From the IMG/VR virus record IMGVR_UViG_3300010412_000075, positions 1-24,946 of that record: a DNA stretch of 24,946 nucleotides, one strand, 5' to 3'. The DNA comes from a virus. Every line of letters starts with the position of its first letter. The first letter of the stretch is position 1. The notes under the pieces were generated by a model, which saw only the letters and a list, made by a program, of their open reading frames with translations, searched no databases and was not told where the DNA came from. Position numbers and translations under genes: made by a program. Shown piece after piece: positions 75 through 16,569 of this stretch.

Positions 75-102
75 TTGACGCTTTGGCCCATCTAGTAGGA
101 GG
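75..102 (+). promoter_or_regulatory. Start module TTGACG-N16-AGGAGG before gene 109
   Basis: TTGACG (75-80), 16 bases, then AGGAGG (97-102), which serves as ribosome binding site 6 bases before the GTG at 109. This copy has one mismatch in TTGACA and reads CTAGT before AGGAGG instead of TATAGAT. It is the most diverged + strand member of the family. Confidence 0.55.
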
Positions 103-108
103 TTCGTT

Positions 109-417
109 GTGAACGTTCGTGAGCAGTCGATTGCCGAGTGTCCTACGTGTTCGTCGCTGATTACGACGGCGCATCTGACGGGCCGTGTGAAGTCGATGGC
201 GGGTGCCGTGATGGTGCCCGTCGAATGCCGCACGTGCGGGTTGGCATTGTCGCTGCGTTACACGCCGCATCAGTGGGGTGTGATTACGGATCATGTGAGG
301 CGTCAGGCGACGGAGGAGCGTGAGAGGATTGGTCGTACTGTGGCGGAGTTTCGCCGTGTGGATCTTGCGGTTGTGGATTCGGTGGAGGATATCCTTCCGT
401 TTTGGGGGTTGGCGTGA
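109..417 (+). CDS. Small zinc-ribbon-like protein (hypothetical)
   Basis: A 102-residue protein of unknown function. Two CxxC pairs, C11-PT-C14 and C40-RT-C43, about 25 residues apart, have the spacing of a zinc ribbon that would bind one zinc ion. The C-terminal half is charged and probably helical. The GTG start at 109 is chosen because a full AGGAGG lies 6 bases upstream. The gene directly precedes the small terminase and overlaps its GTG start by four bases, so it is likely co-translated with the packaging genes. A packaging accessory or DNA-binding role is possible from context only. I do not recognise a named family. Confidence 0.7.
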   Translation: MNVREQSIAECPTCSSLITTAHLTGRVKSMAGAVMVPVECRTCGLALSLRYTPHQWGVITDHVRRQATEERERIGRTVAEFRRVDLAVVDSVEDILPFWGLA

Positions 418-845
418 GTAGTTGGCCTCCCGTGTTGCCGTCGCCGTCTGACAGGTCGACTTCGGCTCGCCGTCAGCGGATGCAGGTGTTTGCGGAGTGG
501 GTGGTGACTCCTGATGAGATGAAGGTGATGGTGGGGATGCCCCGCTATCAGACTGAGTTGGCGGAGATGCTGGGGATGCATCCTGTGACGTTGACGCAGT
601 GGCGGAAGCACCCCGAGTTTCAGGACATGGTGGCTGCGCAGGTGCGTGCGAATGTGGCTGCGACGGATCTGTCGGAGATCATCGGGAATCTGGTGTCGAT
701 CGCGAAGGGCGAGTCGGCGCAGGCTGTGCCTGCTGCCCGTGAGGTGTTGCGCTGGTTCCGCGAGTCGCGTCCTACTGGCAAGTCTGATGCTGGTTTGGAC
801 AGCTTGTCGGATGAAGAGTTGGAGCGGATGCTCCATGACGGGTAA
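414..845 (+). CDS. terS: Small terminase subunit (putative)
   Basis: A 143-residue protein starting at GTG 414, which overlaps the previous TGA stop (GTGA). A TTG at 402 would add four residues but gives a worse junction. Residues about 45-65 form a clear helix-turn-helix (YQTELAEMLGMHPVTLTQW), followed by a helical segment through about residue 115 and an acidic tail. Small terminases recognise the phage packaging site through an N-terminal DNA-binding helix-turn-helix, oligomerise through central helices and recruit the large subunit. Length, fold and position immediately before a recognisable large terminase support the call. The family assignment rests on this architecture and context, not on a catalytic motif. 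The end overlaps the next gene by 11 bases. Confidence 0.75.
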   Translation: MSSWPPVLPSPSDRSTSARRQRMQVFAEWVVTPDEMKVMVGMPRYQTELAEMLGMHPVTLTQWRKHPEFQDMVAAQVRANVAATDLSEIIGNLVSIAKGESAQAVPAAREVLRWFRESRPTGKSDAGLDSLSDEELERMLHDG

Positions 846-2532
846 GGTTCTGGATGTCAGGGAGGTCGACTGGTACTCTCTTGACAACAAGGTCGCCCAA
901 GAGTTGGCGTGGAGGTACGCTGAGAAGGACATCGAGCTGTTCTTGTCGAAAGCGTGGAAGATCACTCTTCCTGGCGCCCCGCCCGCACCACTGGTGCCGA
1001 TGGCAGCACAGTCGGCGGTTCTGAAGGAGTACCAGGGGGAGGATCGTGTCCTGTCGTTGAAGGCCCGTCAGATCGGGTGGACGACGATCACGACGGCGTT
1101 CGTGGGGCATGACATCTTGTTCAACGACTATCATCCTTGGTTGTTCGTGTCGCGTACTGGTGGTGCTGCGATCAAGAACCTGCTGATGGTGTCGAATGGT
1201 TTGAGGAGGTTGCCGAGATGGATTCAGGAGAGGGTGAAGTTGGACGAGTGGAAGTTCACTCAGGATTTCATCGAGACTCCCCGTGGGTCGTGGGTGGAGT
1301 CCATTGCTGCCACTGGTGGCACTGGTCGAGGCGAAGCCGTGTACGGTGTGATGTGGGACGAGGCCGCGTTTGCGGAGGCTGCCGAAGGTATGTACGCCGC
1401 GTTGGAGCCGTTGACGTACGGGAAGTTTTTCGTCCTGTCGACGGCGAACGGGATGGGTAACTGGTTTCATGCGAAGTGGGTGGATTCGAATCTGCCTGGC
1501 AGCACGTGGCGTCCAGTGTTCTACCCGTGGTCGGCTCGGGTGTCGAGAGATGAGGTGTGGTATGAGAAGAAGAAGCGTGACTACCGCGGTCAGCCGTGGC
1601 TGTTCTACCAGGAGTATCCGTCGAATCCTGAGGAGGCTTTCGCGAAGTCGGGTCGTACGGCGATTGATGCGGATCTTCTCGCCGAGTACGATTGGGCGGA
1701 GTCGTGGGAGCGACTGGGATGGGATGGTACCGCTTTCTCCCAGCCCCTCGACCAGTACGACGAGGAACATTACCTTGTTGTCGACGTTTATGAGCGACCA
1801 ACGGTTGAGAGGCACCCTGTCCATGGATACGCGCTCAGGGCTCCCAACTACGTCATCTTCTGTGACGTCGCCCAGGGACTCGAACATGGGGACTACACGG
1901 CCATCGCCGTGTACAATGCGAACACTGGGGCGTGTGTCGCCCGAGTCAGAACCCACTTCCAGTTGGAGGGAATCCCCGAAGTTCTTGAGTGGCTCGGCTA
2001 CTGGTATCACACGGCTCTGGTCGCCGTGGAACGCGAGTATCAGGGCTTCTTCGTCAATCACACGCTTGCGAAGGTACTCGGCTACCCGCGTGTTTACCGC
2101 ATGGCGCAGTTGAACAAGCGGCAGACGCAGGAACGCACCGACGTGTATGGCTGGTCGACGAACATGAGTACGAAGCCGAAGATGGTGAACGACGCACTGA
2201 GGTTCCTCAGGGACCACGAGGTTGACCCACGTGACCCGTGGTTCAAGTCGGAGTGTTCTACCTTCGTGGTGGACGACAAGGGCAAGTATGGGGCATCGTC
2301 GGGGAACCATGACGACGTGGTGATGGCCCACCTGGGGGCCATGCAGTTGTTGACGGAGATCGAACGGTTCCCGACGGTGTGGCGCGACGAGCAGTCGACG
2401 GTGATTACGATGGCCGAGTTCGACGATCTGGCGTTCGGGGTGCCAACGTCGAAGGGGATGCCCCGTGTGGGTGCACACAATTCGGCTGGCGGTGAGCGCC
2501 GCAAGTCGTTCTATGTGCATCGGCTTGGTTGA
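835..2532 (+). CDS. terL: Large terminase subunit, ATPase and nuclease
   Basis: A 565-residue packaging motor that pumps DNA into the prohead through the portal and cuts the concatemer. ATPase part: a Walker A-like KARQIGWTT at residues 76-84 that lacks the usual GKT/GKS, Walker B GVMWDE with D175 and E176, and the coupling motif STANG at 202-206. Nuclease part (RNase H-like): D344 in IFCDVAQG, D353, E399 in AVER, and D493/D494 in the GNHDDVV motif. The ATG at 835 is chosen because it overlaps the small terminase by 11 bases; the open frame extends upstream to 646, but only through the small terminase gene in another frame. The length is normal for the family. The stop at 2530-2532 lies inside the TTGACA of the next start module. 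Confidence 0.95.
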   Translation: MTGKVLDVREVDWYSLDNKVAQELAWRYAEKDIELFLSKAWKITLPGAPPAPLVPMAAQSAVLKEYQGEDRVLSLKARQIGWTTITTAFVGHDILFNDYHPWLFVSRTGGAAIKNLLMVSNGLRRLPRWIQERVKLDEWKFTQDFIETPRGSWVESIAATGGTGRGEAVYGVMWDEAAFAEAAEGMYAALEPLTYGKFFVLSTANGMGNWFHAKWVDSNLPGSTWRPVFYPWSARVSRDEVWYEKKKRDYRGQPWLFYQEYPSNPEEAFAKSGRTAIDADLLAEYDWAESWERLGWDGTAFSQPLDQYDEEHYLVVDVYERPTVERHPVHGYALRAPNYVIFCDVAQGLEHGDYTAIAVYNANTGACVARVRTHFQLEGIPEVLEWLGYWYHTALVAVEREYQGFFVNHTLAKVLGYPRVYRMAQLNKRQTQERTDVYGWSTNMSTKPKMVNDALRFLRDHEVDPRDPWFKSECSTFVVDDKGKYGASSGNHDDVVMAHLGAMQLLTEIERFPTVWRDEQSTVITMAEFDDLAFGVPTSKGMPRVGAHNSAGGERRKSFYVHRLG

Positions 2533-2556
2533 CAGTGCACACAGTTCTATAGGAGG
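2529..2556 (+). promoter_or_regulatory. Start module TTGACA-N16-AGGAGG before gene 2565
   Basis: TTGACA (2529-2534) overlaps the terminase TGA stop; 16 bases later AGGAGG (2551-2556) lies 8 bases before the ATG at 2565. The bases before AGGAGG read CTAT, giving TATAGGAGG. Confidence 0.65.
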
Positions 2557-2564
2557 ATCTTTTC

Positions 2565-2891
2565 ATGGCTGTTGCCACCTGGCTTCAACGGGCCAACAAT
2601 CAGTCTGCGAGTCAGGAGACTGACCGCATTCTGGTTGCGGTCTCGTCGGCGAACCATTTCATTCGGGTCCATTGGATCTTTTTCTCGACGACGACGGCGA
2701 TGACTGTCATGTTGGAGTCGGGGGCTACCCGACTGTGGGAGATGTACGGTGACGTGAATGGTGGTGCCGCCCTGATTGGGGATCCCGACATGGTGCTGGC
2801 GGAGACTGCGGTCGGGGCGAACCTGACTTACACGACTTCGGCGGCGGGCAACCATTTCATTGCTGTCGGCTACACGGAGATAAACGCATGA
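2565..2891 (+). CDS. Small beta-rich protein, possible virion decoration
   Basis: A 108-residue protein that I do not recognise. It is rich in Thr, Ala, Gly and Val with alternating hydrophobic residues, as in an all-beta fold. There is no Cys and no membrane segment. The C-terminal stretch resembles small head-fibre or decoration-type proteins seen between packaging and head genes in other phages, but that is a weak resemblance by eye. The start is well supported by the module-borne AGGAGG 8 bases upstream. The stop overlaps the next ATG by four bases (ATGA). Confidence 0.65.
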   Translation: MAVATWLQRANNQSASQETDRILVAVSSANHFIRVHWIFFSTTTAMTVMLESGATRLWEMYGDVNGGAALIGDPDMVLAETAVGANLTYTTSAAGNHFIAVGYTEINA

Positions 2892-3082
2892 CGATCCTGG
2901 CTTTCATCGGCATTGCTGTCGCAGTGTTCGTTCTTCTTCAGGTCGTGTCGACGTGGCGGCGCCCTCGGGTGCGGGCCATCGAGTGGCACGACCGTGAGAA
3001 GTGGATTCGCTTCTACCCCAATCCAGGCTGGCACATTCGGGGCCACGCCCGTCCTTGGAGTCGGAAGTGGGGAAGGAGGTAA
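2888..3082 (+). CDS. Small single-span membrane protein
   Basis: A 64-residue protein. Residues about 3-21 (ILAFIGIAVAVFVLLQVV) form one strong transmembrane helix. The rest is basic and rich in Trp, Arg and His, which by the positive-inside rule should lie in the cytoplasm. The ATG at 2888 overlaps the previous stop by four bases. Holins and other small phage membrane proteins share this layout, but position inside a structural block and the absence of an endolysin nearby make a lysis role only a guess. Its TAA stop is embedded in the AAGGAGGT ribosome binding site of the following gene. Confidence 0.65.
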   Translation: MTILAFIGIAVAVFVLLQVVSTWRRPRVRAIEWHDREKWIRFYPNPGWHIRGHARPWSRKWGRR

Positions 3083-3085
3083 CCT

Positions 3086-3532
3086 ATGGCTCAGTTCGGA
3101 AGGCCAAGTGCAGACACGAACAACCCAGGCGCGTGGGTCGACCAGGCTGACGGTTCGACGAACATCTACACGACGATCGACGAATCGGTAGCTTCGAACA
3201 CCGACTACATCAAGACGCCTGTCGCTCCTTCGGCTGACATCTACGTGACCAAGCTGACGACCCTGGAAGACCCCGTGTCTTCGGCGGGGCACACGGTGCG
3301 TTGGCGTCAGGGGAAGGATGCGGCTGGTGGTGCGACTGTCCAGTTGACTGTCGAGCTCCGCCAGGGCTACGTGTCGGAAGGCACGCCTGGTACGCTGATC
3401 GCCACCTGCCAGTCGGCGGGTACGGTCGAGGACTCGTTCACTGACAAGTCGTACGCCCTGTCGGGCGCCGAGGCGGATGCGATCACTGACTACACGAACC
3501 TGTATTTGCGGTTCTCAGCGACGCAGGTCTGA
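3086..3532 (+). CDS. Hypothetical beta-rich virion protein
   Basis: A 148-residue protein, unrecognised. The first 40 residues are polar and low in hydrophobics; the remainder alternates hydrophobic and polar residues (VTKLTTLEDP, VQLTVELRQG, LYLRFSA), as in a beta sandwich. Such folds are usual in fibre and decoration subunits. The start is supported by AAGGAGGT 7 bases upstream. It lies in a run of fibre-like genes before the repeat protein, so a surface structural role is a reasonable inference without homology evidence. Confidence 0.65.
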   Translation: MAQFGRPSADTNNPGAWVDQADGSTNIYTTIDESVASNTDYIKTPVAPSADIYVTKLTTLEDPVSSAGHTVRWRQGKDAAGGATVQLTVELRQGYVSEGTPGTLIATCQSAGTVEDSFTDKSYALSGAEADAITDYTNLYLRFSATQV

Positions 3533-3547
3533 GCCGTAGGCCAGCCT

Positions 3548-3859
3548 ATGGCCGAGTTCACCTACGGGCGAGTCCAACTGAACGGTGGCGAGGATGCTTT
3601 CTTCGTCATCGACTATGAGGTGGGCACGCTCCGCATCAACGATCTGGTCGTGCGCAACGGGTCTGTCCATCCGCTTATCCTGACGGTGGCTGTCGTCGCT
3701 GGCGGCGTCGACGTGATTCGTGAGGTGGTGCTCACCCCTGGCGAGACTCGCTATCCGATCCCTGGCAACCGCAGGTTGACCGAGGCCGTGGACTCTGACA
3801 CGGGTGAGCCTACGTTCAGGCTGCCCGTAGATTTCTCGTGGAGCGCGACTGATGGCTGA
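3548..3859 (+). CDS. Hypothetical small beta-rich protein
   Basis: A 103-residue protein with regularly spaced hydrophobic strands (GTLRINDLVVRNG, LILTVAVVAGGV, REVVLTPGETRY), probably a small beta sandwich. I do not recognise a family. The ribosome binding site is weak: only scattered purines precede the ATG at 3548, 15 bases after the previous stop. The end overlaps the start of the long repeat protein by 8 bases, so the two are probably translated together and may act together, for example as adaptor and fibre. Confidence 0.6.
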   Translation: MAEFTYGRVQLNGGEDAFFVIDYEVGTLRINDLVVRNGSVHPLILTVAVVAGGVDVIREVVLTPGETRYPIPGNRRLTEAVDSDTGEPTFRLPVDFSWSATDG

Positions 3860-5828
3860 AACCCTCTACGCGTCTGGCTCGTCATCTGGTGGGTGCCTCA
3901 CCCCAACCAACGCCGTCGGTACCACGTCGGGGACGTGGACGACGAACATCGACAACTCGTCGTGGACCCACATCTGGGATCTCGACAATCCTGTTGGTAC
4001 CCTGGAGGGCACTGACGTTGTCGAGGTGCTCATCCGTGCCCGCCATCAGGACGGCACGGGTAACCCGACGATCAACAGTGTCCGAATCCTAGAGTCGGGC
4101 ACTGAGCGGGGCGCCAACTCGACGGGTTGGACGATCACCTCCGCCTCAGGCGAGGACGTCACCCTGACCGTGTCGGTGTCGGGGATGACGAACTGGGATA
4201 ACGCCCAGATTGAGATTGCTACGACGGCTGCGGGGGGTAGCCCCTCTGTCAGGTCTGCCGTCCAGGTCGACTACATGCACGCCACCGTGCAGAACGCTTC
4301 GACCGACCGCAAGGCCCAGGTCGCCTGGGCTGAGCTTGAGGTGCCTAACGCCCCGTCGGATGCGCCGACGATCATCGGTTCGGTGGCGTCGGGTGCTTCG
4401 GGTGCCGACGTTTCCTCCTACAGTGGCGTGTCGCATACGCTGGTGGCTGGCCTGAACCGCAAGGTGTTGGTGTGGGTCACCTACGACGACACGGGTGAGA
4501 CTGGCGCTCAGGTGTCGGGGGTCACCTACGGTGGCGTTTCGATGACCAAGGTCACTGACGGCACGACCACTGGCGATGCTGTCATGCTGTCGACCAACAC
4601 GACAGCATCCGAACTGTTCCAGCTTGACGAGTCGTCCCTGCCTGCGAACGGGGCGAACACGATTGCCGTGACGATGGCGTCCGTTGTGGACGGCATCCAG
4701 GTGGGTGCCATCTGCCTGGAGAACGCCACCCAGGGCAACGCCCACAAGGTGGCGGTTCAGGAGGCCGATGGCGGCACGACGCTGTCGATCACGATTGTGC
4801 CCACGTCGAACAACACGTTCATCTTGGACGCTTGGGGTCTTTCGACTGGTGTGGGTGGTGGTACCCCCGACGCCCCACAAACGGAGTTGACTGACTTCGA
4901 TGGGGCTGGTTCGGGGATGGGGCAGGTCTCTTCGTGGAAGACGCAGACTACTGCTGCCTCGACTACGATGGGTTGGACGGTCGGCACTTCTCAGGGTAGA
5001 GCGGCTGCTGTCGCCGCAGCCTTCACGAAGACGGCGGGCACGACCGACCGTCAGGCTCGGGTGTCTTTCGCGGAACTGGAAGTTCCGTCTGCGCCCCGCC
5101 GCGCCGAAGTCTCATGGGCGGAACTGGAGGTTCCAACGGCGCCCCGCCGCGCCGAAGTCTCGTGGGCTGAGATGGAGATCCCCACGGCTCCCAGGCGGGT
5201 TCAGGTTTCGTGGGCGGAGTTGGAGCTCCCCGATGCGCCACGTGAAGCCCAGGTCTCTTGGGCTGAACTGGAAGTCCCCGACGCACCCCGTAGGGCTCAG
5301 GTCTCTTGGGCCGAACTGGAGATTCCGAATCCCGATAGGCGGGTCGAGGTCTCTTGGGCCGAGTTCGAAGTACCGAACGCTCCCACGACCGACAGGGAGG
5401 CGCAGGTCTCTTGGGCTGAGTTTGAGGTGCCTGATGGGGCACGTCGAGTGCAGGTGTCCTTCGCCGAACTGGAAGTCCCGCTGGCCCCGAGACGCGGGCA
5501 GGTCTCCTTCGCCGAGTTCGAAGTTCCACTTGGGGTGCGTCGAGCCCAGGTTTCCTGGGCCGAGTTTGAGGTGCCGACGGCACCGCGGCGCAGCCAGGTT
5601 TCGTTCGCCGAACTTGAAGTGCCTGACGCCCCGAGGCGCGCCCAGGTGTCGTTTGCTGAGGTCGAGGTGCCTACCGCACCGCGCCGTGCGCAAGTGTCGT
5701 GGGCTGAGATCGAGATGCCGAACTTCGCCCGTAGTGCTATCGTCACGTGGGCGGAGATGGAAGTGCCGTCGCCTGTCGGACTGTACACGAGGACTCGCGG
5801 TCTGATGAAGTACATCTGGAAGGGTTGA
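3852..5828 (+). CDS. Fibre-like protein with 15 tandem 16-residue repeats
   Basis: A 658-residue protein, probably a virion surface fibre or adhesin. Three parts are visible. Residues 1 to about 148 form a beta-rich domain with many Thr, Ser, Asn and Gly. At about 149-167 stands a single repeat-like unit (AQVAWAELEVPNAP), followed by a second beta-rich domain up to about 395. Residues 401-643 are 15 tandem repeats with the consensus RAQVSWAELEVPxAPR; unit 7 has a 3-residue insertion. A short basic tail (residues 644-658) ends the protein. Each unit looks like one beta strand plus a Pro/Arg turn, as would suit a solenoid or stacked trimeric shaft. The ATG overlaps the previous gene by 8 bases. 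Nothing identifies the receptor. The name rests on composition and context. Confidence 0.75.
   Translation: MAETLYASGSSSGGCLTPTNAVGTTSGTWTTNIDNSSWTHIWDLDNPVGTLEGTDVVEVLIRARHQDGTGNPTINSVRILESGTERGANSTGWTITSASGEDVTLTVSVSGMTNWDNAQIEIATTAAGGSPSVRSAVQVDYMHATVQNASTDRKAQVAWAELEVPNAPSDAPTIIGSVASGASGADVSSYSGVSHTLVAGLNRKVLVWVTYDDTGETGAQVSGVTYGGVSMTKVTDGTTTGDAVMLSTNTTASELFQLDESSLPANGANTIAVTMASVVDGIQVGAICLENATQGNAHKVAVQEADGGTTLSITIVPTSNNTFILDAWGLSTGVGGGTPDAPQTELTDFDGAGSGMGQVSSWKTQTTAASTTMGWTVGTSQGRAAAVAAAFTKTAGTTDRQARVSFAELEVPSAPRRAEVSWAELEVPTAPRRAEVSWAEMEIPTAPRRVQVSWAELELPDAPREAQVSWAELEVPDAPRRAQVSWAELEIPNPDRRVEVSWAEFEVPNAPTTDREAQVSWAEFEVPDGARRVQVSFAELEVPLAPRRGQVSFAEFEVPLGVRRAQVSWAEFEVPTAPRRSQVSFAELEVPDAPRRAQVSFAEVEVPTAPRRAQVSWAEIEMPNFARSAIVTWAEMEVPSPVGLYTRTRGLMKYIWKG
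5052..5780 (+). repeat. 15 x 48-bp coding tandem repeat
   Basis: Fifteen in-frame units of 48 bases (unit 7 has 57) encode the 16-residue repeat. Strongly fixed residues are the V-S-(W/F)-A-E core, the following E, then (V/I/L/M)-P. The unit edges vary (AP, NPD, DGA, LGV, NFA). Most units have diverged at synonymous sites, but a 23-base block at 5091-5113 recurs exactly at 5139-5161, one unit later, as expected of a recent local duplication. A lone related unit sits at about 4300-4350. Confidence 0.93.
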
Positions 5829-5852
5829 CACTTTCAGCAGTTGTATAGGAGG
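5825..5852 (+). promoter_or_regulatory. Start module TTGACA-N16-AGGAGG before gene 5861
   Basis: TTGACA (5825-5830) contains the TGA stop of the repeat protein; after 16 bases, AGGAGG (5847-5852) lies 8 bases before the ATG at 5861. The bases before AGGAGG read GTAT, as in the copy at 2529. Confidence 0.65.
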
Positions 5853-5860
5853 ACATTTCC

Positions 5861-6693: not shown

Positions 6694-6884
6694 ACACCAT
6701 GCTCGTACAACTGAAGGAACAACTCGAAACCCAGTTGGCTGAGAAGCGGAAGGCGCTCTCAACCTACGACCGTGAGACGGGCCGCATCAACAGCGAGGTG
6801 GCCCGTATTACTGCTGAAGTGGCACGCCTCCAGTCCTACATTGCCCAGGAGAATCGTCCTGGTGGGGGCAACCCGAATGCCTAG
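6684..6884 (+). CDS. Small coiled-coil protein
   Basis: A 66-residue protein, nearly all one amphipathic helix: residues about 3-55 show heptad-like Leu/Val/Ile spacing with many Glu, Lys, Gln and Arg, then a Gly/Asn/Pro-rich tail. It should form a dimeric or trimeric coiled coil. It overlaps the previous gene by 10 bases and the portal by 8, so it is firmly tied to portal translation and may be an assembly partner of the portal or prohead. That role is inferred from position. Confidence 0.65.
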   Translation: MDLNTMLVQLKEQLETQLAEKRKALSTYDRETGRINSEVARITAEVARLQSYIAQENRPGGGNPNA

Positions 6885-8712
6885 TAGGATCGCTGGCTAC
6901 GAGAAGCAGTTCGGACGTTCCGCCAAGCTGCACCAGAAGACTGGGTTCGTGCAGGAGATGATCGCCTGGTCGAAGTCGTACCGCGAGCAGGCCCGCGAGC
7001 ACATGTGGCGGAAGTCTGAGAAGGCGTACAACGGGAAGCAGTGGGCTGCCACCGAAGGCGACATCGACATCGTGACCGTCAACATGCTGTTCTCGACGAT
7101 CAACACGATCGTCCCCTACGTGACGGGATCCACCCCGTTCTTCCGTGTCACCCCCTACTCTGGCGCTGCCAATGGGCGTGACGCTGCGGCGTGGACCGCA
7201 TGGATGAACCTCCTCTGGAACTCGTACGAAGTGCAGGGTGACATTGCCGCCGAAGCCTCAGTGTTCGACGCATTGCTGTATGGCGACGGCTACCTCCAGG
7301 TTTCTTGGGACTTCTTTGATGAGATGGTTGAGTCGGACGACGTGTTCGCCGCGGAGGAGGTCGCTCAAATGGCAAAGCTGTTTGTCGACCGCGTGGACCC
7401 ATGGGACGTGTGGCTCGACCCAGCTTCCGACGGGATGCACAATGCCCGTTGGGTGGTGGTTCGGCGCACGCTTCCCGTGAAGTCAGTGAAGGACAATCCA
7501 AAGTACCGCTACACGAGCGAGCTCCGCCCGCGGTCAACGTGGGATGAGCGGCGCGACTTCGTCGATTCCGACGGCCAGGCAGAAACGGAGGGGGGCTCCC
7601 ACGGCCTAATCGATCTGTACGAGTTCTATGATATGGTCGAGGGCACCTTGTATGTGGTCTCCGAGGATTCGGATGTGCCCCATCGTGTGGTCGAGGGAGC
7701 CCGCCCACCTATCGCCCAACTGTCCAACTACAAGATTCCCAACTCGCCCTATCACATGGGGGAGATGGAACAGCTCTTCGACCTTCAGGACGAGCTCAAC
7801 AAGACCCGCACCCAGATGATCAACCACCGTCGGCGGAACGTGCCGAAGTACCTGGCTGCCGAGGACAAGCTGGGGTCGGGTGCTATCGCCGCTCTCAAGT
7901 CGGAGGAGCCCGCCGAAGTGGTGCTCGTCAAGGGCGACATCGACCCGCGCACAGTGGTCACGCCCCTCGACTTGGCCCAGTTGACTGCCGACTCCTACCA
8001 GGTGTCGGACCTGATCGTTCGTGACCTGTACGAGATCAGTGGCGTCAACGAGTACCTGCGTGGCGGCACACCACAGATTTCCCGTACGGCGACGGAGGCG
8101 ACGATCATCGAGTCGGCGTCGAACATCAAGTCGTCGTACAAGCTGAAGCTGGTCGAACGGTTCCTCCGCCAGGTGGGCCAGATGATTCTGGACGTGGCGT
8201 TCGACGTGTTCCCTGGCACCGACTTCTCCGAGCAGCAGTTCGTCCTGTCGGGTGGTGCCGCCCAACAGTTGGCGAACCACGAGAAGGGCCTCCAGGGCCA
8301 GCAGGTTCAGGAGGTCGAGATGAACCTCGACGGGGAGATGTTCAACGGCACCTATCAGGTGGAAGTGGATCCCCGTTCGACCGAGCTTCGTTCCCCCGTC
8401 GTGAAGGCGCAGCGGTATCAGGAGATGTTCCAGACGTTCTTGCAGGCGGCTCCCGCCATGCAGCAGTTGGGGATGCCGATCCCGAACCTGCGCAAGATCG
8501 CCGAGTTGTGGCTTGAAGCGTTCGGTGTCACCGACCCCAGTCTGATTCTGGACGGCGACCAGCAAGCCGCCCTTCAGCAGCAAATGATGGCTGCTGCGGG
8601 TGGAGGAATGCCTGGGGCCGAACCCCAGACTGGCGTGCCCTTCGGGCCTGCTACTCAGCCTCCTTTGGACGCACCAACACCTGACAACAGTGGGATGTTC
8701 GGTCCCGCATAG
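6877..8712 (+). CDS. Portal protein
   Basis: A 611-residue portal, the ring at the unique capsid vertex through which DNA enters and leaves. Recognisable features are an early helix-rich region, LLYGDGYLQVSWD at residues 133-145, and VDPWDVWLDP at 173-182, typical of portal wing and clip regions. A long helical segment follows that includes a region rich in Gln and Asn. The C-terminal 50 residues are Gln-, Gly- and Pro-rich and probably flexible. The ATG at 6877 is preferred because it overlaps the coiled-coil gene by 8 bases; the open frame reaches back to 6772, but the extra residues are a shadow of that gene. The size fits podovirus-type portals of about 600 residues. The stop is followed directly by the scaffold start module. 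Confidence 0.9.
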   Translation: MPSRIAGYEKQFGRSAKLHQKTGFVQEMIAWSKSYREQAREHMWRKSEKAYNGKQWAATEGDIDIVTVNMLFSTINTIVPYVTGSTPFFRVTPYSGAANGRDAAAWTAWMNLLWNSYEVQGDIAAEASVFDALLYGDGYLQVSWDFFDEMVESDDVFAAEEVAQMAKLFVDRVDPWDVWLDPASDGMHNARWVVVRRTLPVKSVKDNPKYRYTSELRPRSTWDERRDFVDSDGQAETEGGSHGLIDLYEFYDMVEGTLYVVSEDSDVPHRVVEGARPPIAQLSNYKIPNSPYHMGEMEQLFDLQDELNKTRTQMINHRRRNVPKYLAAEDKLGSGAIAALKSEEPAEVVLVKGDIDPRTVVTPLDLAQLTADSYQVSDLIVRDLYEISGVNEYLRGGTPQISRTATEATIIESASNIKSSYKLKLVERFLRQVGQMILDVAFDVFPGTDFSEQQFVLSGGAAQQLANHEKGLQGQQVQEVEMNLDGEMFNGTYQVEVDPRSTELRSPVVKAQRYQEMFQTFLQAAPAMQQLGMPIPNLRKIAELWLEAFGVTDPSLILDGDQQAALQQQMMAAAGGGMPGAEPQTGVPFGPATQPPLDAPTPDNSGMFGPA

Positions 8713-8740
8713 TTGACAGATTGGCCGTATAGATAGGAGG
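8713..8740 (+). promoter_or_regulatory. Start module TTGACA-N16-AGGAGG before scaffold
   Basis: The portal stop TAG (8710-8712) is followed at once by TTGACA (8713-8718), 16 bases, and AGGAGG (8735-8740), 4 bases before the ATG at 8745. This copy carries the full 13-base core TATAGATAGGAGG, shared exactly with the copies at 13382 and 16542. Confidence 0.7.
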
Positions 8741-8744: not shown

Positions 8745-9686
8745 ATGTCTGACAACACATCATCGGAAGGACTCGCACCTGTCGCCAGCTTCGACGAAGC
8801 AGTCCAACGAGCCATGGGGGAGATCGACGCGGCAACGTCGGTCGAAGCAGAGCCTGCCTTGCCAGCAGGTTCGAACGATCCCGAGGCTCCGACGGATGAC
8901 GCTGAAGTCGATGTCGATGTTCAGGCCAGCGAACAACCCGAAGACGAGACCTTCGATTTCGACGATGCCCCCGAGGCGTCCGAGGAGTCGAATACGTTCG
9001 ACCCGAGTCGTGAGCTTTTCACGATCGATGGGTTCGACGAGCCAGTTTCCCTAGAGGAGCTGGCGAAGGGCTACCTGCGGCAGTCCGATTACACTCGGAA
9101 AACGCAGGAACTTGCCGCGCTGCGGAAGCAGGCGGAGGAGTCAGTGCGGAACGTTGGGGAGGGGGCAGCCACCTTGTGGGAATCCTTGAAGGATGATCCC
9201 GTCGGAACTGCCGCCTATCTGGCCGTACGTGCAGGCCTGATTGACGAGAAAGCCGTGTCGGCGCGCCTGAAGGAAGTTCAGGGCATCCGTCTCGTTGACG
9301 AAGCGACATTGCAGTCTCTCGTTCAGGAGCGCCTGGACAGTGCCGTTCAGAGTGACCCGCGAGTGCAGCAGGCACAGGCGAACCGAGTTCAGGCTCAGAT
9401 CGAAGGGCAGTTTGCCGCGATCGAGTCGGATATCGGTAGGCCGCTGTCTGAGCGCGCCCGCATCAGGACTCTTCAGTTTGCCACGGAGCATGGCATTGCC
9501 GACCTCAGGGTTGCGTTTGCGGCCCTTCGGGGTCAGTCGCAGCCGAAGCGGGAAGTGAAGGCGAGTTCATCGCCTGAGCGTCCGCAGCCGAAGCCGCGGG
9601 ATGACGCCGCATTCACCGAGGGAGAAGTGGTTTCCTTTGAGGAGGCTGCTCGTCGCGCCCTCGTGAGTCTTGGGGTCGAGACTTGA
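8745..9686 (+). CDS. Capsid scaffold protein
   Basis: A 313-residue scaffold that guides capsid protein assembly into a prohead and is then lost. The N-terminal third is strongly acidic and disordered (residues about 35-90). It is followed by EEPVSLEEL-like and GYLRQSDYTRKTQEL sequence at about 98-123, a motif often seen in phage scaffold proteins. A long helical segment with coiled-coil character covers about 115-245, and the C-terminal tail is mixed, charged and partly basic, where scaffolds usually contact the capsid protein. It stands between portal and major capsid protein, as expected. No protease active site is seen. The module-borne AGGAGG fixes the start. Confidence 0.88.
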   Translation: MSDNTSSEGLAPVASFDEAVQRAMGEIDAATSVEAEPALPAGSNDPEAPTDDAEVDVDVQASEQPEDETFDFDDAPEASEESNTFDPSRELFTIDGFDEPVSLEELAKGYLRQSDYTRKTQELAALRKQAEESVRNVGEGAATLWESLKDDPVGTAAYLAVRAGLIDEKAVSARLKEVQGIRLVDEATLQSLVQERLDSAVQSDPRVQQAQANRVQAQIEGQFAAIESDIGRPLSERARIRTLQFATEHGIADLRVAFAALRGQSQPKREVKASSSPERPQPKPRDDAAFTEGEVVSFEEAARRALVSLGVET

Positions 9687-9709: not shown

Positions 9710-10651
9710 ATGAGTGCAAATCTGACCGATCAGGTCATTTCAACCACCATGCTGCATTACGTGCCCAAGCTGGAAGACAACGTGTTTTCTTCGAAGCCCC
9801 TCCTGTGGGCGTTGAAGAACGCGGGTCGTATTCAGAACTTCACTGGTCCGTCCATCGAAGTCCCTCTGCTCTACGCCGAGTCGGCCAACAAGGGTTCGTA
9901 CTCTGGTACTGATGTCTTCTCGACTGCTGCCGAGACTGGAATCGGTAACGCTTCCTTCAGTTGGAAGCAGTACTACGCCCTTGTCTCGTTCAACGGATTG
10001 GAGCTGGCGAAGAACAGTGGCCGCGAGGCCGTCCTGTCGCTTCTCCGCGCCCGTCTGGAGCAGGCTGAGATGACGATTTCCGAGAACCTCGATGAGATGC
10101 TTCTCGGAGATGGTACTGGCAACAGCAGCAAGGACTGGGATGGTCTGCTCAAGATCATCGGGACCATCGACAACACTGTCGGTGGGATCGACAGCACCAC
10201 GCAGACTTGGTGGGAAGCCTATGTGAACAGCGCCGCGGTTGCGGATGCTGCGCTCATCGGCGCCATGCGTACCGCCTACAACACGGCGAGTGAAGGTAAC
10301 GATCATCCGACCAACATCTTCACCACGCAGGCTGCGTTTGAGATCTATGAGGCTCAGCTTCAGGATCAACAGCGCTTCACCGACACCAAGATGCTGGATG
10401 CTGGTTTCCAGAACCTCATGTTCAAGGCAGCGCCGATCGCTTTCGATCAGTACGTTGCGGCTGGCGACATGTACTTCGCCAACTTCAAGTACCTGACGCT
10501 CGCCAAGTTGAACGATGTCTGGTTCAAGGTCTCCGACTTCTTGCAGCCGACCAACCAGGATGTTGTGTACAAGCACATCAAGTGCTACGGGAACCTCGTT
10601 GTGAGCAACCGCTCGCGGCATGGCGCCCTGACCAGCATCACGAACGGCTGA
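9710..10651 (+). CDS. Major capsid protein (HK97-type, inferred)
   Basis: A 313-residue shell protein. It has the usual features of an HK97-fold capsid protein without a long cleaved N-terminal domain: a short N-arm with PKLEDNVFSSKPLLW, the strand-rich E-loop-like GSYSGTDVFSTAAETG region, a spine helix (LLRARLEQAEMTISENLDEMLLGDG) at about residues 114-140, and a C-terminal domain ending in a beta strand. Position after the scaffold and length both fit. The fold assignment is by pattern, not search. The only ribosome-binding-like sequence, AAAGGA at 9688-9693, is 16 bases from the ATG, which is unusually far for the most abundant virion protein. Confidence 0.88.
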   Translation: MSANLTDQVISTTMLHYVPKLEDNVFSSKPLLWALKNAGRIQNFTGPSIEVPLLYAESANKGSYSGTDVFSTAAETGIGNASFSWKQYYALVSFNGLELAKNSGREAVLSLLRARLEQAEMTISENLDEMLLGDGTGNSSKDWDGLLKIIGTIDNTVGGIDSTTQTWWEAYVNSAAVADAALIGAMRTAYNTASEGNDHPTNIFTTQAAFEIYEAQLQDQQRFTDTKMLDAGFQNLMFKAAPIAFDQYVAAGDMYFANFKYLTLAKLNDVWFKVSDFLQPTNQDVVYKHIKCYGNLVVSNRSRHGALTSITNG

Positions 10652-10785: not shown

Positions 10786-10801
10786 CACCTAAGGAGGGTG
10801 T

Positions 10802-10969
10802 ATGTATACGACGTATCAGATCGCACAAGCAATGAACATCTGGGCCGACCCGAAGTCGACGGGTGTCGCTACCCGCTGGGCTGAGGATGTCGTGACCTGG
10901 GCGGAGAAGCATCTGACCGAGTGGGAGAAGCAGTCTCTGATTGGGGTGCACCGTGACCGTCGGCCATGA
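10802..10969 (+). CDS. Small Trp-rich hypothetical protein
   Basis: A 55-residue protein starting with MYTTYQIAQAMNIW. It holds four Trp residues (14, 26, 33, 41) and is otherwise polar and probably helical, with the look of a small helical DNA- or protein-binding module. AAGGAGG at 10791-10797 gives a very good ribosome binding site 4 bases upstream of the ATG. It begins 17 bases after the tRNA-Trp CCA end, so the two share a transcript. No family is recognised. Confidence 0.6.
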   Translation: MYTTYQIAQAMNIWADPKSTGVATRWAEDVVTWAEKHLTEWEKQSLIGVHRDRRP

Positions 10970-11177: not shown

Positions 11178-11854
11178 TGAGTGACCTGGCTGCCATCCGC
11201 GACTTCGTACGTGAGCAGACCCTCATCGAGATCGACGACTGGTCGAATGCGAAGGTTCTGAACGTCATCAACGAGGGGATCCGCGAGGTGGCGTCCCGTT
11301 TCCGCTGGCCGTTCCTGTCGGCCTCGGCGCAGATCAGCGTGACCGCTGGCACCCAGTCGTATGCCCTTTCGAGTATAGCGTCGAATGTGCAGCGGATCGC
11401 TGCGATCATCGACAATACTCGTCGGGTGAAGTTGCAGGAGGTGGAACCCCAGTACGCTTGGGAGCTCTACGGTGGTGACGCCCCCGATTCGGATGAGGCG
11501 CTCGCCTTCTACCTGTGGGGTGAGTCCCTGTACCTGTTGCCGACGCCGTCGGCGAACGAGTCGAACGCCTACACGATGTTCTACTACAAGACTCCGACGG
11601 AGCTGTCGAACGACACTGACGTGCCCGAATGGTCGTCCCAGTTCCACATGCTCCTGGCCGACTATGCGATCGCCAGAGTGTGGGAACGTGAGGAGGATTT
11701 CCAGAAGGCACAGGCTGCCCAGCAGCGGTTCGATCTGCGGGTCGAGCAGATGGCCCGCCACTACCTGAACCGCGTTGAGGACGAACCACTCGTCTACGGG
11801 AAGGGCAAGTACAGTTACCGCCGTGGGGTGGATCTGAACTTGATTCTGGACTGA
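11177..11854 (+). CDS. Head-tail connector or head-completion protein (putative)
   Basis: A 225-residue protein. It starts with helices (AAIRDFVREQTLIEIDDWSN, VLNVINEGIREVASRFRWPFL), then short beta strands (TAGTQSYALS, SLYLLPTPSANES), and ends with helices. This helix-bundle-plus-strands layout, with a conserved-looking RFRWPFL after the second helix, is typical of connector or adaptor proteins that sit below the portal in podoviruses (P22 gp4 or T7 gp11-like roles). The place between capsid and nozzle-like genes agrees. The GTG start overlaps the previous stop by one base, with no strong ribosome binding site. The exact family is not established. Confidence 0.65.
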   Translation: MSDLAAIRDFVREQTLIEIDDWSNAKVLNVINEGIREVASRFRWPFLSASAQISVTAGTQSYALSSIASNVQRIAAIIDNTRRVKLQEVEPQYAWELYGGDAPDSDEALAFYLWGESLYLLPTPSANESNAYTMFYYKTPTELSNDTDVPEWSSQFHMLLADYAIARVWEREEDFQKAQAAQQRFDLRVEQMARHYLNRVEDEPLVYGKGKYSYRRGVDLNLILD

Positions 11855-13380
11855 TGGCTGGTACTTCTCCTGTCGAGACGATTCGTCTGCCAGGCTGGGA
11901 GGGTGGCCTGAATGCTGACGCCGACCCGTTCCAGTTGGAGCCGAACGAGGTGCCCGACTGCATCAACGTGGACTTCGGGTTGCGGGGTGCCGTGTCGAAG
12001 CGGATGGGCTATTCGGAGTACAGTGTTTCGTTGACTGACAAGATCCGCAGGTTGGAGACGTGGCGGGAGGATCCTTCGACGAAGTGGCTGATTGGGGTCA
12101 CTGCTGGTGCGACCACTTCTGACCTGCGTTACTCTACGTCGGGTACGTTTTCGTCGCAGGTGACGGGTTGGGCTCAGCCGTCGACCGACGAGGAGTACCA
12201 TGTCGGTTCGCAGTCGTACGAGTCGAAGGTGTACTTCACGTCGAAGTTGGGGAATCCGTGGTCGTTCGACGGGGCGACGTGGACTGAGATCACTGACACG
12301 ACCCTGTCGGGTGCGGCTTCGGAGTTCCCGAAGGCCGTCGACCTGGAGGCTGCGCACGAGCGCATGTTCGCTGTGAACGTGTCGACTGGTGGCACGAACT
12401 ACTCGTCGCGGGTCTGGTACTCTGCGGTGGGTGACGCCGAAATCTGGGATCCGCTGGACTGGATCGACGTGGACCCCGACGATGGTGACGCCCTGTGGGC
12501 GATCAAGGCGTTCGGCGAGTCGATCATCCTGTTCAAGTCGCGGTCCTGCTACATTCTGGCGGGTACCGACGACAACACGTTCAGCCTGTACCCGTTGGAC
12601 CGTGGCATCGGTACGAGCGCCCCACGTTCGGTGGTGGCCCGCGAGTCGAAGGTGATCTTCTTCGATCCCCGTACGGGTGTGTGGGAGTTCGACGGTGCGG
12701 GGTTCCGCCCACTGTCGGACAAGATCCTCAACTACCTGCTGGACGGAATCAACCCCGACGAGGCGCACAGGTCGGCTGCGTTCATCCATGATTCCAAGTA
12801 TTACCTGTCGGTCCCGTGGGGTGCAGACACGCACAACAGCCGCATGTTCGTGTTCGATCTGCGTACGGAGGCGTGGACCCAGTACGACTATGGTGTGGCG
12901 GATGCTGCCGAGCGGGAGCGGATCACGTACGGTGCGATGAACCGTAATGCTGCTGGCATCTACAAGCTGTTCGACACGTACGGGGATGACGGGTCTGCGT
13001 ACAGCGCCTACTTTGACACGTTGTGGATGCATCCCGAGAATGAGGCTGTTCGGCAGCGGCTGCGCCGCGCTGACTTCGCGTTCTCTGCGTTGCAGGATCT
13101 GAACATGACAGTGAAGATGTACCGTGATTTCGATGTGGATGCGGTGTTCACGAAGACGATCAACACGTCGCCTGGTGGCGGCTTGTGGGGGTCGATCGTG
13201 TGGGGTACTGACGCCTGGGGTTTGGGTGTGGATCAGGTGTACAAGCGGGAGACGGGCTGGCCGAAGCGGTGGAGGGTGATGAAGCTGCGGGTGGAGCAGA
13301 ACGATCTGAATGCCCGCTGGCAGGTGAACCGTATTCTGCTGCACGTGTCGAGCCTTGATAGGGTTCGGGGCGAAGCGTAG
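11854..13380 (+). CDS. Tail nozzle/hub-like protein, beta-propeller type
   Basis: A 508-residue structural protein. The N terminus (residues about 14-52: GWEGGLNADADPFQLEPNE, then CINVDFGLRG..SKRMGYS) closely follows the pattern of podovirus tail proteins that open with a GGxNxxxDPxxLxxxExxxxxNVxF stretch and fold as a beta-propeller hub (role of P22 gp10 or T7 gp12). The rest is a series of beta blades with WYSAVGDAEIWDP, SCYILAGTDDNTFSLYPLDRGIG and RTGVWEFDGAGFRPLSDKI-like segments. It should form the tail tube tip that attaches fibres and conducts DNA. Its ATG shares one base with the connector stop (TGATG), and no good ribosome binding site is seen. Exact homology was not tested. Confidence 0.7.
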   Translation: MAGTSPVETIRLPGWEGGLNADADPFQLEPNEVPDCINVDFGLRGAVSKRMGYSEYSVSLTDKIRRLETWREDPSTKWLIGVTAGATTSDLRYSTSGTFSSQVTGWAQPSTDEEYHVGSQSYESKVYFTSKLGNPWSFDGATWTEITDTTLSGAASEFPKAVDLEAAHERMFAVNVSTGGTNYSSRVWYSAVGDAEIWDPLDWIDVDPDDGDALWAIKAFGESIILFKSRSCYILAGTDDNTFSLYPLDRGIGTSAPRSVVARESKVIFFDPRTGVWEFDGAGFRPLSDKILNYLLDGINPDEAHRSAAFIHDSKYYLSVPWGADTHNSRMFVFDLRTEAWTQYDYGVADAAERERITYGAMNRNAAGIYKLFDTYGDDGSAYSAYFDTLWMHPENEAVRQRLRRADFAFSALQDLNMTVKMYRDFDVDAVFTKTINTSPGGGLWGSIVWGTDAWGLGVDQVYKRETGWPKRWRVMKLRVEQNDLNARWQVNRILLHVSSLDRVRGEA

Positions 13381-13381
13381 G

Positions 13382-13409
13382 TTGACAGTTCGCACCTATA
13401 GATAGGAGG
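13382..13409 (+). promoter_or_regulatory. Start module TTGACA-N16-AGGAGG before fibre gene 13414
   Basis: TTGACA (13382-13387) starts one base after the previous TAG stop; AGGAGG (13404-13409) lies 16 bases later and 4 bases before the ATG at 13414. It contains the 13-base core TATAGATAGGAGG. Confidence 0.7.
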
Positions 13410-13413
13410 ATTT

Positions 13414-13992
13414 ATGGCGACAGCCAGTGTGACAAACAGCTTCACGAACGGCACGACTGCCGACGCTACCGAGGTCAACACGAACTTCAGTGATCTGGTC
13501 ACGTTCCTGAACGGGTCGGTCGTGCATTTGGATGGTTCGAAGACGATGACGGGTGCCCTGCTGATGGGGTCGAACAAGATCACGGGCCTAACGAAGGGTG
13601 CCGCTTCGGGGGAGGCAGCCGACTTCATCCAGGCCGACACGTTTCTGATCCCCTTCCAGATCTCGGGGCCACAGGCGGTGGGCACCGACAAGATCGGGCG
13701 CTTCTACATGCCGTATGCGGGCACCTTCGTCGAAGTGTGGATGTGGATCGACGACGCCCCGACGGGCGCCGACCTCCAGTTCGACATCAACAAGAACGGC
13801 ACCACCCTGTGGGGCACAACCCCAGCGAACCGTCCGATCATCGCTGCGGCGGGAACCACCGAGTCGGTGACGACCTTCGACACGACCACATTCGCCGATG
13901 GCGACTACCTGACATTCGACGTGGATCAGATTGGGAGCACGAATGCTGGCGGCAAGGTGATCGGCTGGATTCGGGTTCGTAGGACCGCCTGA
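13414..13992 (+). CDS. Tail fibre-like protein
   Basis: A 192-residue protein. Residues about 40-75 (HLDGSKTMTGALLMGSNKI, TGLTKGAASGEAADF) match a motif very common in tail fibre proteins, where it forms part of a trimeric shaft or head-attachment region. The C-terminal half is beta-rich (VEVWMWIDDAPTGADLQFDI, YLTFDVDQIGST), like a small jelly-roll tip domain. It is short for a complete fibre and so may be a fibre base or adaptor carrying the next two proteins. The start is fixed by the module. The stop overlaps the next ATG by one base. Confidence 0.75.
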   Translation: MATASVTNSFTNGTTADATEVNTNFSDLVTFLNGSVVHLDGSKTMTGALLMGSNKITGLTKGAASGEAADFIQADTFLIPFQISGPQAVGTDKIGRFYMPYAGTFVEVWMWIDDAPTGADLQFDINKNGTTLWGTTPANRPIIAAAGTTESVTTFDTTTFADGDYLTFDVDQIGSTNAGGKVIGWIRVRRTA

Positions 13993-15914
13993 TGGCTGGG
14001 ACCAACTGGCTGGGGACACCCACGATCGAGGGTGCGACGACTATTCAGCAGGCTGCCAACGTAAGCAACGATCTCGTCGTCTCGGTGCCGTCTGGGGCGC
14101 AGGTTGGCGACCTGCTGGTTGCCCACATCCTGATGTCGGACTACCCATCGCTCGGCTCCACGATCACCGCTCCTTCTGGCTGGACCCAATGGCATTTTGG
14201 GTCCGTCTCCACCTCTTGGGTTTCGGGCTACCTGTACACCGCGAACGTATACTATCGGATCGTCGACGGGACTGAGACGTCGACGTACACGTGGTCGAAG
14301 ACGGGGTCGGGCTCGGCGGCCACTTACTGTACGGGGTCGATGGTCTTGTATCGGCCTGCCGCTGGTTCCTCGATTGAGGCGGGGAACCCCATCATTGGGG
14401 TCATCAACAACAACGGCCACAACACTGCCACTGGCGACGGGATTGGTAATAGCGCCGTTTACCGTTCGGGTGCTGGGCTGGCGGTCGCCGCACACCACGC
14501 TCGCATTACGGGCATCACCCACGGGCTGAGTTCGGGTGTCGACTGGACCGAACATACCGACGCGAACAGCATCGGGATCGCATACACGAGCCGCGGCTGG
14601 GACAGGTACGACACTCCTTCCGATACGATGACGTTCGGTAGCTGCGAGGGGTTCACGTTTGAGTACGACGTGAATGTCACGTCACCGAAGTTCGCCACGC
14701 AGGTTCGCTGCACCCACCAAGGTTACGGCAACCAGCAGCAGTACGGGCGTAACGGTGTCATGCTTGCTGATGGCACGATTGTCCTGGCGTACGTCGCCGA
14801 GGACTACAAAGTCCATTGCCATTACTCGACGGACGGTGGAGCGACGTGGGCGGAAACCACCACCCCCTTCGACACTGGCACTTCCACTGAGCACGCTACG
14901 AGAGTCGAACTATTGCAGTCGAGCCTTGGTGGCGGCTACATCTTGGTGTCGACGTACAACAATGGCACGGGGCTGCCCGTGGGGTCGATCTTGAAGAAGT
15001 GGTCGTTCAGCGGCGGCGACATCACCATCAACCATTCGGCCAGTTACCTTCCTGGCGGCGACTATACGGGCCACTCTCTTCTGGTGATGCAAGACCCCGA
15101 GGGAACCCCGACCTACGACGAACTGGTGGTTGGGTTCGGTAACAGCCAGTTCGGTGCCATCGGATACACAACGGCGAGCGGGTTCTCCTCCATCTTGCAG
15201 GCGTCGGTCTGCTCGTCGGGCACTGAGGGTTCCGCTGTGGTGGCGCGCACGTACCATTCGACTTTCCCCGATGTCGCCACAGATCCCGACGTGATGATGA
15301 TAGGCGGCAACGGCGGCAACATCACCCACAACAAGGCCACGTACACAGGTTCGTACACCTGGTCGATCTCAAACGGGAACCTCTCGGCCGACAACGGCTC
15401 GGGTGCGCCTGGCGGAGGCTACTTCGACTCAACTTCCGACAAGATGTGGGCGCTGACGATCGACGACGTCAACTCTCCCACCTTCGGTATTCGACCGTGG
15501 AGCGCTGACGACGACGCGTGGCCTGGGGGCGCTGCGGGGGCCAAGTCGAATCTGTCCGTCAATGCGGCCAGCCCGTTCAATAGGATGCCACACGGGTGGG
15601 CAGACGCCGCTGACCGTCGGATCACGATGGTCCACCACAACGCCACCTACATCTGGGGCAACACGTACCGTGTGGCAACCAACGACTACGACACAACGTC
15701 AAACCAGGGGTTTGTGGCTGGGACTGCGACCCTCATGGACAACTCCTATTTCGCTGGTGTGGTTCGCGCTCGCCACGGGACGAAGGATTTCAAGGGGATT
15801 CTCTGGCACGACAAGCTTTCGGGCAGCAGTTATGGGGCGATCACTGTCGTCGAGTCGACCGAGATGGCTGGTTCCGCTGCTGCTGTGCCTGGCTGGGGAA
15901 TCTGGGGCGCCTGA
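13992..15914 (+). CDS. Receptor-binding or fibre protein with Asp-box
   Basis: A 640-residue, beta-rich protein. The N-terminal ~230 residues resemble an adhesin-like beta sandwich also found in other phage fibres (VGDLLVAHIL, ITAPSGWTQW, YRIVDGTE). From about residue 230 there are repeated strand-turn units. S279-T-D281-G-G283-A-T285-W286 fits the Asp-box (BNR) pattern of sialidase-type beta-propellers. The Asp-box is structural and does not prove enzymatic activity; no complete sialidase active site could be picked out by eye. A role in host surface sugar binding or hydrolysis is likely. The ATG at 13992 shares one base with the previous TGA. Confidence 0.7.
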   Translation: MAGTNWLGTPTIEGATTIQQAANVSNDLVVSVPSGAQVGDLLVAHILMSDYPSLGSTITAPSGWTQWHFGSVSTSWVSGYLYTANVYYRIVDGTETSTYTWSKTGSGSAATYCTGSMVLYRPAAGSSIEAGNPIIGVINNNGHNTATGDGIGNSAVYRSGAGLAVAAHHARITGITHGLSSGVDWTEHTDANSIGIAYTSRGWDRYDTPSDTMTFGSCEGFTFEYDVNVTSPKFATQVRCTHQGYGNQQQYGRNGVMLADGTIVLAYVAEDYKVHCHYSTDGGATWAETTTPFDTGTSTEHATRVELLQSSLGGGYILVSTYNNGTGLPVGSILKKWSFSGGDITINHSASYLPGGDYTGHSLLVMQDPEGTPTYDELVVGFGNSQFGAIGYTTASGFSSILQASVCSSGTEGSAVVARTYHSTFPDVATDPDVMMIGGNGGNITHNKATYTGSYTWSISNGNLSADNGSGAPGGGYFDSTSDKMWALTIDDVNSPTFGIRPWSADDDAWPGGAAGAKSNLSVNAASPFNRMPHGWADAADRRITMVHHNATYIWGNTYRVATNDYDTTSNQGFVAGTATLMDNSYFAGVVRARHGTKDFKGILWHDKLSGSSYGAITVVESTEMAGSAAAVPGWGIWGA

Positions 15915-16540
15915 TGGGCCGCGGCATCTCCTACCCGAGGCAACTTGGCGAGATCTCCGACCTGGCCCGCATTGGGCGCACCGTGGTCGAGAACTTCCGT
16001 GTCACCGCCGACTTCATCAACGGCTACGTACCAACCTACGAGTCGGGTTCCACCGACCTGATTCTGCCTGGCAGCTTGCAGGTGACTGGTGATCTGGCTG
16101 TGGCTGGCGAGATCCGCAGGAGCGGCACGAAACGCCACATTTGGGCGTACGATGCTGCTGGTTCCCAGTCGATTGGGGCTACTGCGTGGACGCCTGTGAA
16201 TCTGGACTCTGAGCAGGGGACGTCGGATTCGACGACGTTCACGTTGGACGCAGTGAATGATGCTGTGGATATCAACGTTGGGGGGATCTACATTGCGACG
16301 GGTCGGGTCACGTTTCAGGCTGCCGAGTCTGGCTATCTTCGCCTTTTGGGGAACGGCACCGACGAGTATTGTCGCAACTCTTTCAACTCGCGTCTCGACC
16401 ATTCGATCACGTCGATCATCTATGTGGCGACTGCGTCCCAGTTGACGTTCGAAGTGTATTCGGATTCGGCTGCGAACACGTCTGCGTCGCCGACGGCGTA
16501 CACGATGTTCCTCCAGGTGGCGCAACTGTACGACATCTAG
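15914..16540 (+). CDS. Fibre protein with jelly-roll-like C terminus
   Basis: A 208-residue protein. The N terminus (YPRQLGEISDLARIGRTVVENFRVTADFI) is helical and may pack against the tail. A short fibre-type stretch follows (LILPGSLQVTGDLAVAGEI, residues about 50-70). The C-terminal ~135 residues are beta-rich with FTLDAVNDAVDINVGGIY, YIATGRVTFQA and a final hydrophobic strand (TMFLQVAQLYDI), a pattern like C1q/TNF-type jelly rolls in phage receptor-binding tips. The fold call is by pattern only. The ATG shares one base with the previous stop, and the TAG stop lies one base before the next start module. Confidence 0.68.
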   Translation: MGRGISYPRQLGEISDLARIGRTVVENFRVTADFINGYVPTYESGSTDLILPGSLQVTGDLAVAGEIRRSGTKRHIWAYDAAGSQSIGATAWTPVNLDSEQGTSDSTTFTLDAVNDAVDINVGGIYIATGRVTFQAAESGYLRLLGNGTDEYCRNSFNSRLDHSITSIIYVATASQLTFEVYSDSAANTSASPTAYTMFLQVAQLYDI

Positions 16541-16541
16541 G

Positions 16542-16569
16542 TTGACAGTTTCACCGTATAGATAGGAGG
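16542..16569 (+). promoter_or_regulatory. Start module TTGACA-N16-AGGAGG before gene 16580
   Basis: TTGACA (16542-16547), 16 bases, AGGAGG (16564-16569), then 10 bases to the ATG at 16580. It contains the 13-base core TATAGATAGGAGG and follows the fibre stop by one base. Confidence 0.7.

Follow-up and report, generated by a model that had tools for sequence, protein, structure and literature searches.

The promoters of phage T7 have the form TAATAC...CTATA, their RNA starts beside CTATA and their leaders carry 5′ hairpins. In phage 7-11 the late promoters are bipartite (GTAAtg-(16)-aCTA) and are read by the phage's own sigma factor gp47, promoter and factor having diverged together in the group (PMC8948821). 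The middle and late promoters of phiEco32 have a single element, tAATGTAtA, with no upstream box, and its gp36 is without region 4 (PMC4281155, PMC8948821). T4 middle promoters, which work by sigma appropriation, have an excellent TATAAT and, at -30, a MotA box (PMC2988021). Cluster K mycobacteriophages carry the start-associated sequence (SAS) GGGATAGGAGCCC and its extended form (ESAS), a 17-bp inverted repeat whose consensus differs between subclusters (PMC3203893), and in staphylococcal phages the small proteins RinA/Ltr switch on packaging and structural genes from a sigma-A type promoter via direct repeats (PMC13123087). We analysed a repeated intergenic module, TTGACR-N16-AGGAGG (R being A or G), in a viral stretch of 24,946 nucleotides (IMG/VR record IMGVR_UViG_3300010412_000075, positions 1 to 24,946), which as a whole is called the window here and has a GC content of 61%. 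We consider it rather likely that the modules serve a P22-like podovirus, which seemingly has no RNA polymerase of its own, as phage-specific and probably late promoters, with the RNA starting at the right-hand element of the module; that the element is a promoter at all appears very likely.

Copies of the module in the window

Seven exact copies are present, six on the plus strand and one on the minus strand:

34..61, minus strand: seventh module, TTGACACCCTGGACAGTCTAATAGGAGG, diverging from the copy at 75
75..102, plus strand: module preceding the first rightward gene (GTG at 109)
2529..2556, plus strand: module 3′ of the large terminase gene, preceding ATG 2565
5825..5852, plus strand: module preceding ATG 5861
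8713..8740, plus strand: module between the portal gene and the scaffold gene (ATG 8745)
13382..13409, plus strand: module 3′ of a tail-hub-like gene, preceding ATG 13414
16542..16569, plus strand: module preceding ATG 16580

An earlier, sequence-only reading of this DNA had listed the six plus-strand copies, each of which is indeed an exact match, but its total of six missed the copy at 61-34. It was also right that three copies share the core TATAGATAGGAGG and two share TATAGGAGG, and that in five plus-strand copies the stop codon of the preceding gene overlaps TTGACA or adjoins it. The comparison with shuffled sequence that it proposed, done on both strands, gave 7 exact matches in the window against a mean of 0.003 in 1000 dinucleotide shuffles. 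When all spacings from 0 to 40 were pooled the shuffle mean was 0.34 against 7 in the window, where every TTGACR/AGGAGG pair up to 40 bases apart has the spacing of 16. A scan with two mismatches allowed (7 found, 4.5 expected) is uninformative alone because mismatches dilute the signal. Two further positions are invariant in 7/7 copies, namely C at position 14 and T at position 22 of the module. In the six plus-strand copies AGGAGG is a perfect Shine-Dalgarno (SD) site lying 4-10 bases ahead of the start codon; the SD sites of genes without a module (3074, 6201 and 10792) read AAGGAGG and never TAGGAGG. Downstream of the minus-strand copy no ATG, GTG or TTG occurs before the window ends.

Layout in relatives and predicted RNA start

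No direct DNA neighbour of the window was found in phage records, and a search of viral contigs for the exact TTGACA-N9-TATAGATAGGAGG gave no match, therefore no very close relative was available. Relatives gathered through capsid, terminase and portal searches comprise one contig with a capsid at 75% identity (L008) and about 30 contigs with 36-50% portal identity. Their gaps hold elements with the layout of the module in other letters. The left box is uniform inside one genome and different from genome to genome, being TTGAC in L091/L092, L093, L098 and G009, GTGAC in L090, TCGAC in G001 and G005, CTGAC in L099 and GAGAC in L008, while the element of G002 and G003 reads TAATAC-N8/9-CTATATAN-TGAA. 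The right end is TAGG, as in the window, or TGAA or TGAG. The elements also occupy corresponding gaps: that after the large terminase gene in G002, G003, L010 and G009 (window copy 2529), that between portal and scaffold genes in L008, L009, L091/L092, L093, L095, L098, L105, L107 and L112 (window copy 8713), and the gap of window copy 13382 in L008 (6498) and L012 (9082). The element at 10262 of G009 precedes the gene corresponding to that after window copy 16542, and 5′ of the small terminase gene a divergent pair is found in G002 (-214/+223) and G003 (-36501/+36500), as in the window. An automatic count of 6-mers in the gaps, with no sites chosen beforehand, gave TTGACA 5 times against 0.11 expected in the window and 5 against 0.46 in G009, and TAATAC 6 times each in G002 (0.99 expected) and G003 (0.76 expected). 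The same element thus stands ahead of several transcription units in each genome, in letters that depend on the lineage, which is the pattern of phage-specific promoters; among the explanations that the sequence-only reading had listed, this one is supported.

It may be asked which part of the module is held in place. In 53 elements the left box begins 21-25 bases (27 in one parse; standard deviation about 1) before the T of TAGG, TGAA or TGAG, a figure to be taken as descriptive, whereas the distance from the left box to the SD is 22-65 bases (standard deviation about 10); some copies have the SD coinciding with the right element, others as much as 40 bases farther on. Since its distance varies so widely, the SD is plainly not the anchor across relatives. 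Anchoring by the ribosome site, as claimed earlier, stands inside the window and fails beyond it, and it is contradicted also by the seventh window copy, which has no start codon and whose AGGAGG lies within a hairpin. Copies without a nearby gene (-214 and 22759 in G002, 11960 in G003) keep TGAA or TGAG and not the SD.

That hairpin is as follows:

21..39, minus strand: predicted 5′ hairpin AGGAGGG-CATTT-CCCTCCT, -10.9 kcal/mol, p about 0.001 against shuffles

Its perfect 7-bp stem has as its first base the A of AGGAGG in the module. When the copies of the window and the relatives were divided by leader length, a hairpin with its first pair at +1 to +8 of the right element was found in 9/11 long-leader copies (p ≤ 0.04) as against 1/17 short-leader copies (Mann-Whitney p = 0.0008). 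The hairpin sequences vary among copies; RNA structure at a shared 5′ end would thus seem to be under selection. In G001 (27347, 31854) and G005 (13969) an ATG directly follows TGAG, so a start farther downstream would lose the ATG. The position of the hairpins and of these ATGs points to an RNA start at the right element. A start 6-9 bases farther, with the right element as a -10 box at a sigma-like spacing of 16, is disfavoured; such a start would truncate the hairpin at its 5′ arm and would lie past the ATG at the same three sites of G001 and G005.

Proposed promoter, candidate factor and alternatives

Taken as a promoter, the left box (TTGACA in the window) would be read by a specificity factor that changes among lineages, and the RNA would start at the right element (TAGG in the window, at about base 22-24 of the module). 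The message would begin with or just before (A)GGAGG, its initial bases doubling as the SD for the gene that follows; in places with no gene directly downstream, it would begin with a short stem-loop instead. The copies at 34(-) and 75(+) would form a divergent pair driving both genome arms. The modules are probably transcription-start modules that also supply the SD site, and their use may be late and by the host RNA polymerase.

For the factor itself we looked at the proteins of the near-complete relatives. Apart from structural proteins, G001, G002 and G003 have in common only a helicase of the DnaB type, an exonuclease, a small protein resembling nucleases and a protein of about 100 amino acids, the gene of which directly follows the nuclease gene in G001, G002, G003, L187 and L188. 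The profile of this small protein matches region 4 of SigF (PDB profile, E = 7e-7), and the G001 protein matches PF08281 (1e-11). Its predicted structure (pLDDT 74) resembles sigma region 4 with a Foldseek probability of 1.00 but an E value of only 0.013 or more. Sigma region 2 (PF04542) was not found. A split sigma factor, with region 2 in the neighbouring 160-residue protein, was rejected, the conserved motifs of that protein being read as those of a PD-(D/E)XK-like nuclease. The protein with likeness to sigma region 4 is the best candidate for a specificity factor that redirects the host RNA polymerase, and we put the chance that it is the factor at about even.

Several points weigh against a promoter of this kind. 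A start at base 22-24 puts the left box at about -23 to -17, too near the start for sigma region 4, which normally makes contact at -35, and the -10-like box within the window modules lies at two different distances. The 53 elements were gathered by hand and by eye, with the right element sought only at bases 20-27, so their tight spacing is partly built in. Words other than the left box rank above it in the gap counts of other, mostly shorter contigs (e.g. L090, L099), two long-leader copies (G002 -214 and G003 -36501) have no hairpin, and the sigma-4-like gene was sought in the window and not found, the other genome arm, with about half of the genome, lying outside it.

The alternative that survives best has the modules as promoters of a divergent single-subunit RNA polymerase of the T7 kind. 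They recall T7 late promoters in size (about 23 bp between box and start), in having CTATA beside a GG start and in their 5′ hairpins, and G002 and G003 have TAATAC...CTATATAGTGAAGG elements, with TAATAC-N8/9-CTATA in relatives. The polymerase is what fails to appear: PF00940 had no match in 24 related records, the near-complete G001-G003 included, with the control genomes giving none either. G002 and G003, near-complete by gene content, have no unassigned open reading frame of polymerase size except the giant virion protein, which showed no polymerase motifs on scanning. The T7 23-bp consensus (-17 to +6) has no match in the window. We therefore find this explanation, which the sequence-only reading had also entertained, improbable.

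Still less probable are operators, that is, sites for a phage repressor or activator at the translation start of each unit, stoperator-like and not promoters. The repeated, sequence-specific sites in fixed orientation would suit this, as would the TAATAC box found as a perfect inverted pair, TAATACAGTTTGAACTGTATTA, at 7524-7545 of G002 (L162), 5′ of the scaffold gene; against it, the sites are asymmetric and always oriented with the downstream gene, and the right element holds a start-like position followed by hairpins. Very improbable in our view is a start module acting at translation in the manner of SAS, anchored on the ribosome site and with its upstream box acting in the RNA. The perfect SD sites of the six plus-strand copies speak for it, but the seventh copy hides its AGGAGG in a hairpin and lacks a start codon, the SD moves in relatives where the right element stays, and the modules had no match in Rfam. 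Ordinary host sigma-70 promoters with good ribosome sites, which TTGACA as the -35 consensus would recall, are scarcely tenable and had rightly been set aside at the first reading, since no -10 hexamer lies at 16-18 bases, a sigma-70 scan picks up 0 of the modules, and relatives have TAATAC, TCGAC or GAGAC in place of TTGAC.

Podovirus structural genes in rightward orientation lie in the window, coding for terminase, portal, scaffold and capsid as well as for P22-like tail proteins and the giant virion protein:

844..2532, plus strand: large terminase gene (phrog_2, E = 1e-16)
6880..8712, plus strand: portal gene (phrog_332 and phrog_156), the query that found the relatives
8745..9686, plus strand: scaffold gene (phrog_3927, E = 7e-19)
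9710..10651, plus strand: major capsid protein gene (capsid searches)

A 658-residue protein is encoded at 3852-5828, and its second half consists of near-identical repeats of the type RRAQVSWAELEVPxAP. A tail-hub scan and a search of genome contigs found no relatives and thus no host clue. In the relatives, the portal reading frame of L012/G009 (L012:1510-4389) encodes 959 amino acids and includes an intein-like insertion from 'CVDEQTEALTQRGWL', and the portal-scaffold interval of L008 has a reading frame (1180-1851) for a secreted zinc-protease-like protein with the motif HELGHVLAQTH. An operon with phiEco32-like COOH-NH2 ligase, ATP-grasp and glutamine amidotransferase genes lies at G002:36801-42371 and G003:24079-30295 (L163, L164, L166); SPFH and Stealth-like genes are also present in G002, and an AAA protein with similarity to FtsH-type peptidase in both. 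MW202803 (L089) was tried as a model relative and rejected as too distant and having other intergenic repeats; its palindrome CGTTTCTGACGGAAACG, with variants, is repeated 5′ of 38887-39204, 40916-41422, 29602-30027 and 22787-23425.

Comparison with described systems

The repeats resemble SAS/ESAS in lying just 5′ of start codons. The suggestion that they are relatives of the Cluster K sequences did not hold, as no window site is within 2 mismatches of SAS; three sites have 3 mismatches, none of them at the modules, and no ESAS-type imperfect inverted repeat of 17 bp was seen on direct reading of the modules and 40 bases upstream. By description only, RinA/Ltr is comparable in that a small phage protein serves packaging and structural genes, and differs in its sigma-A promoter and direct repeats. 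With T7 the AT-richer relatives share TAATAC...CTATA, the start by CTATA and the 5′ hairpin leaders; unlike T7, the elements are 2-3 bp longer, TAATAC and CTATA being farther apart, and no single-subunit polymerase gene was found. T4 middle promoters are comparable in that the -35 element gives way to a phage box nearer the -10 region (12 bp ± 1 in T4; PMC2988021), but here the -10 match is poor in GC-rich members, and no MotA/AsiA homologue was seen, none having been sought. The likeness to phiEco32 lies in phage-specific promoters, with a start 6-8 bases past the element in phiEco32, and in the COOH-NH2 ligase and amidotransferase genes of G002/G003; the two-box layout differs, and the protein here shows only region 4, the very region that gp36 lacks. 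Each of phiEco32, T4 middle promoters, T7 and SAS therefore shares one trait and fails another, and the modules are probably not SAS, sigma-70 or T7 elements.

The closest precedent is phage 7-11 (PMC8948821). Common to both are bipartite phage promoters 5′ of late genes, host RNA polymerase with a phage factor having sigma region 4 (proposed here), a CTA-type element (the start in 7-11 being 6-9 bases downstream) and a sequence that varies among related phages as the factor diverges. The spacing differs: the CTA-like bases here are about 7-12 bases after the left box, and the start region has already been reached at base 16 after it. The candidate factor also has only about 100 residues and, unlike gp47, no region 2 that we could find. 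The 7-11 consensus had no exact match in the window, and its two-mismatch sites (10 found, 5.4 expected) are near chance. Because the precedents share one trait and fail another, and the spacing and consensus of 7-11 do not fit, we read the modules as a new variant of phage-specific late promoters. More tentatively, and with the chances leaning against it, they might represent a novel kind of promoter for bacterial RNA polymerase, with the box at about -22 in place of -35 and read by a lone phage protein resembling sigma region 4, the RNA starting on the ribosome site, its initial bases serving as SD or opening a protective 5′ hairpin, and box and factor co-evolving in the clade. Such a spacing is not described for phage sigma-type factors in the literature found. 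If true, promoters would be readable from sequence alone across an entire clade of uncultured podoviruses, the clade would offer a natural series of lineage-specific promoter boxes that can be matched to a small candidate factor, and promoter and ribosome site would be packed in one 28-bp unit.

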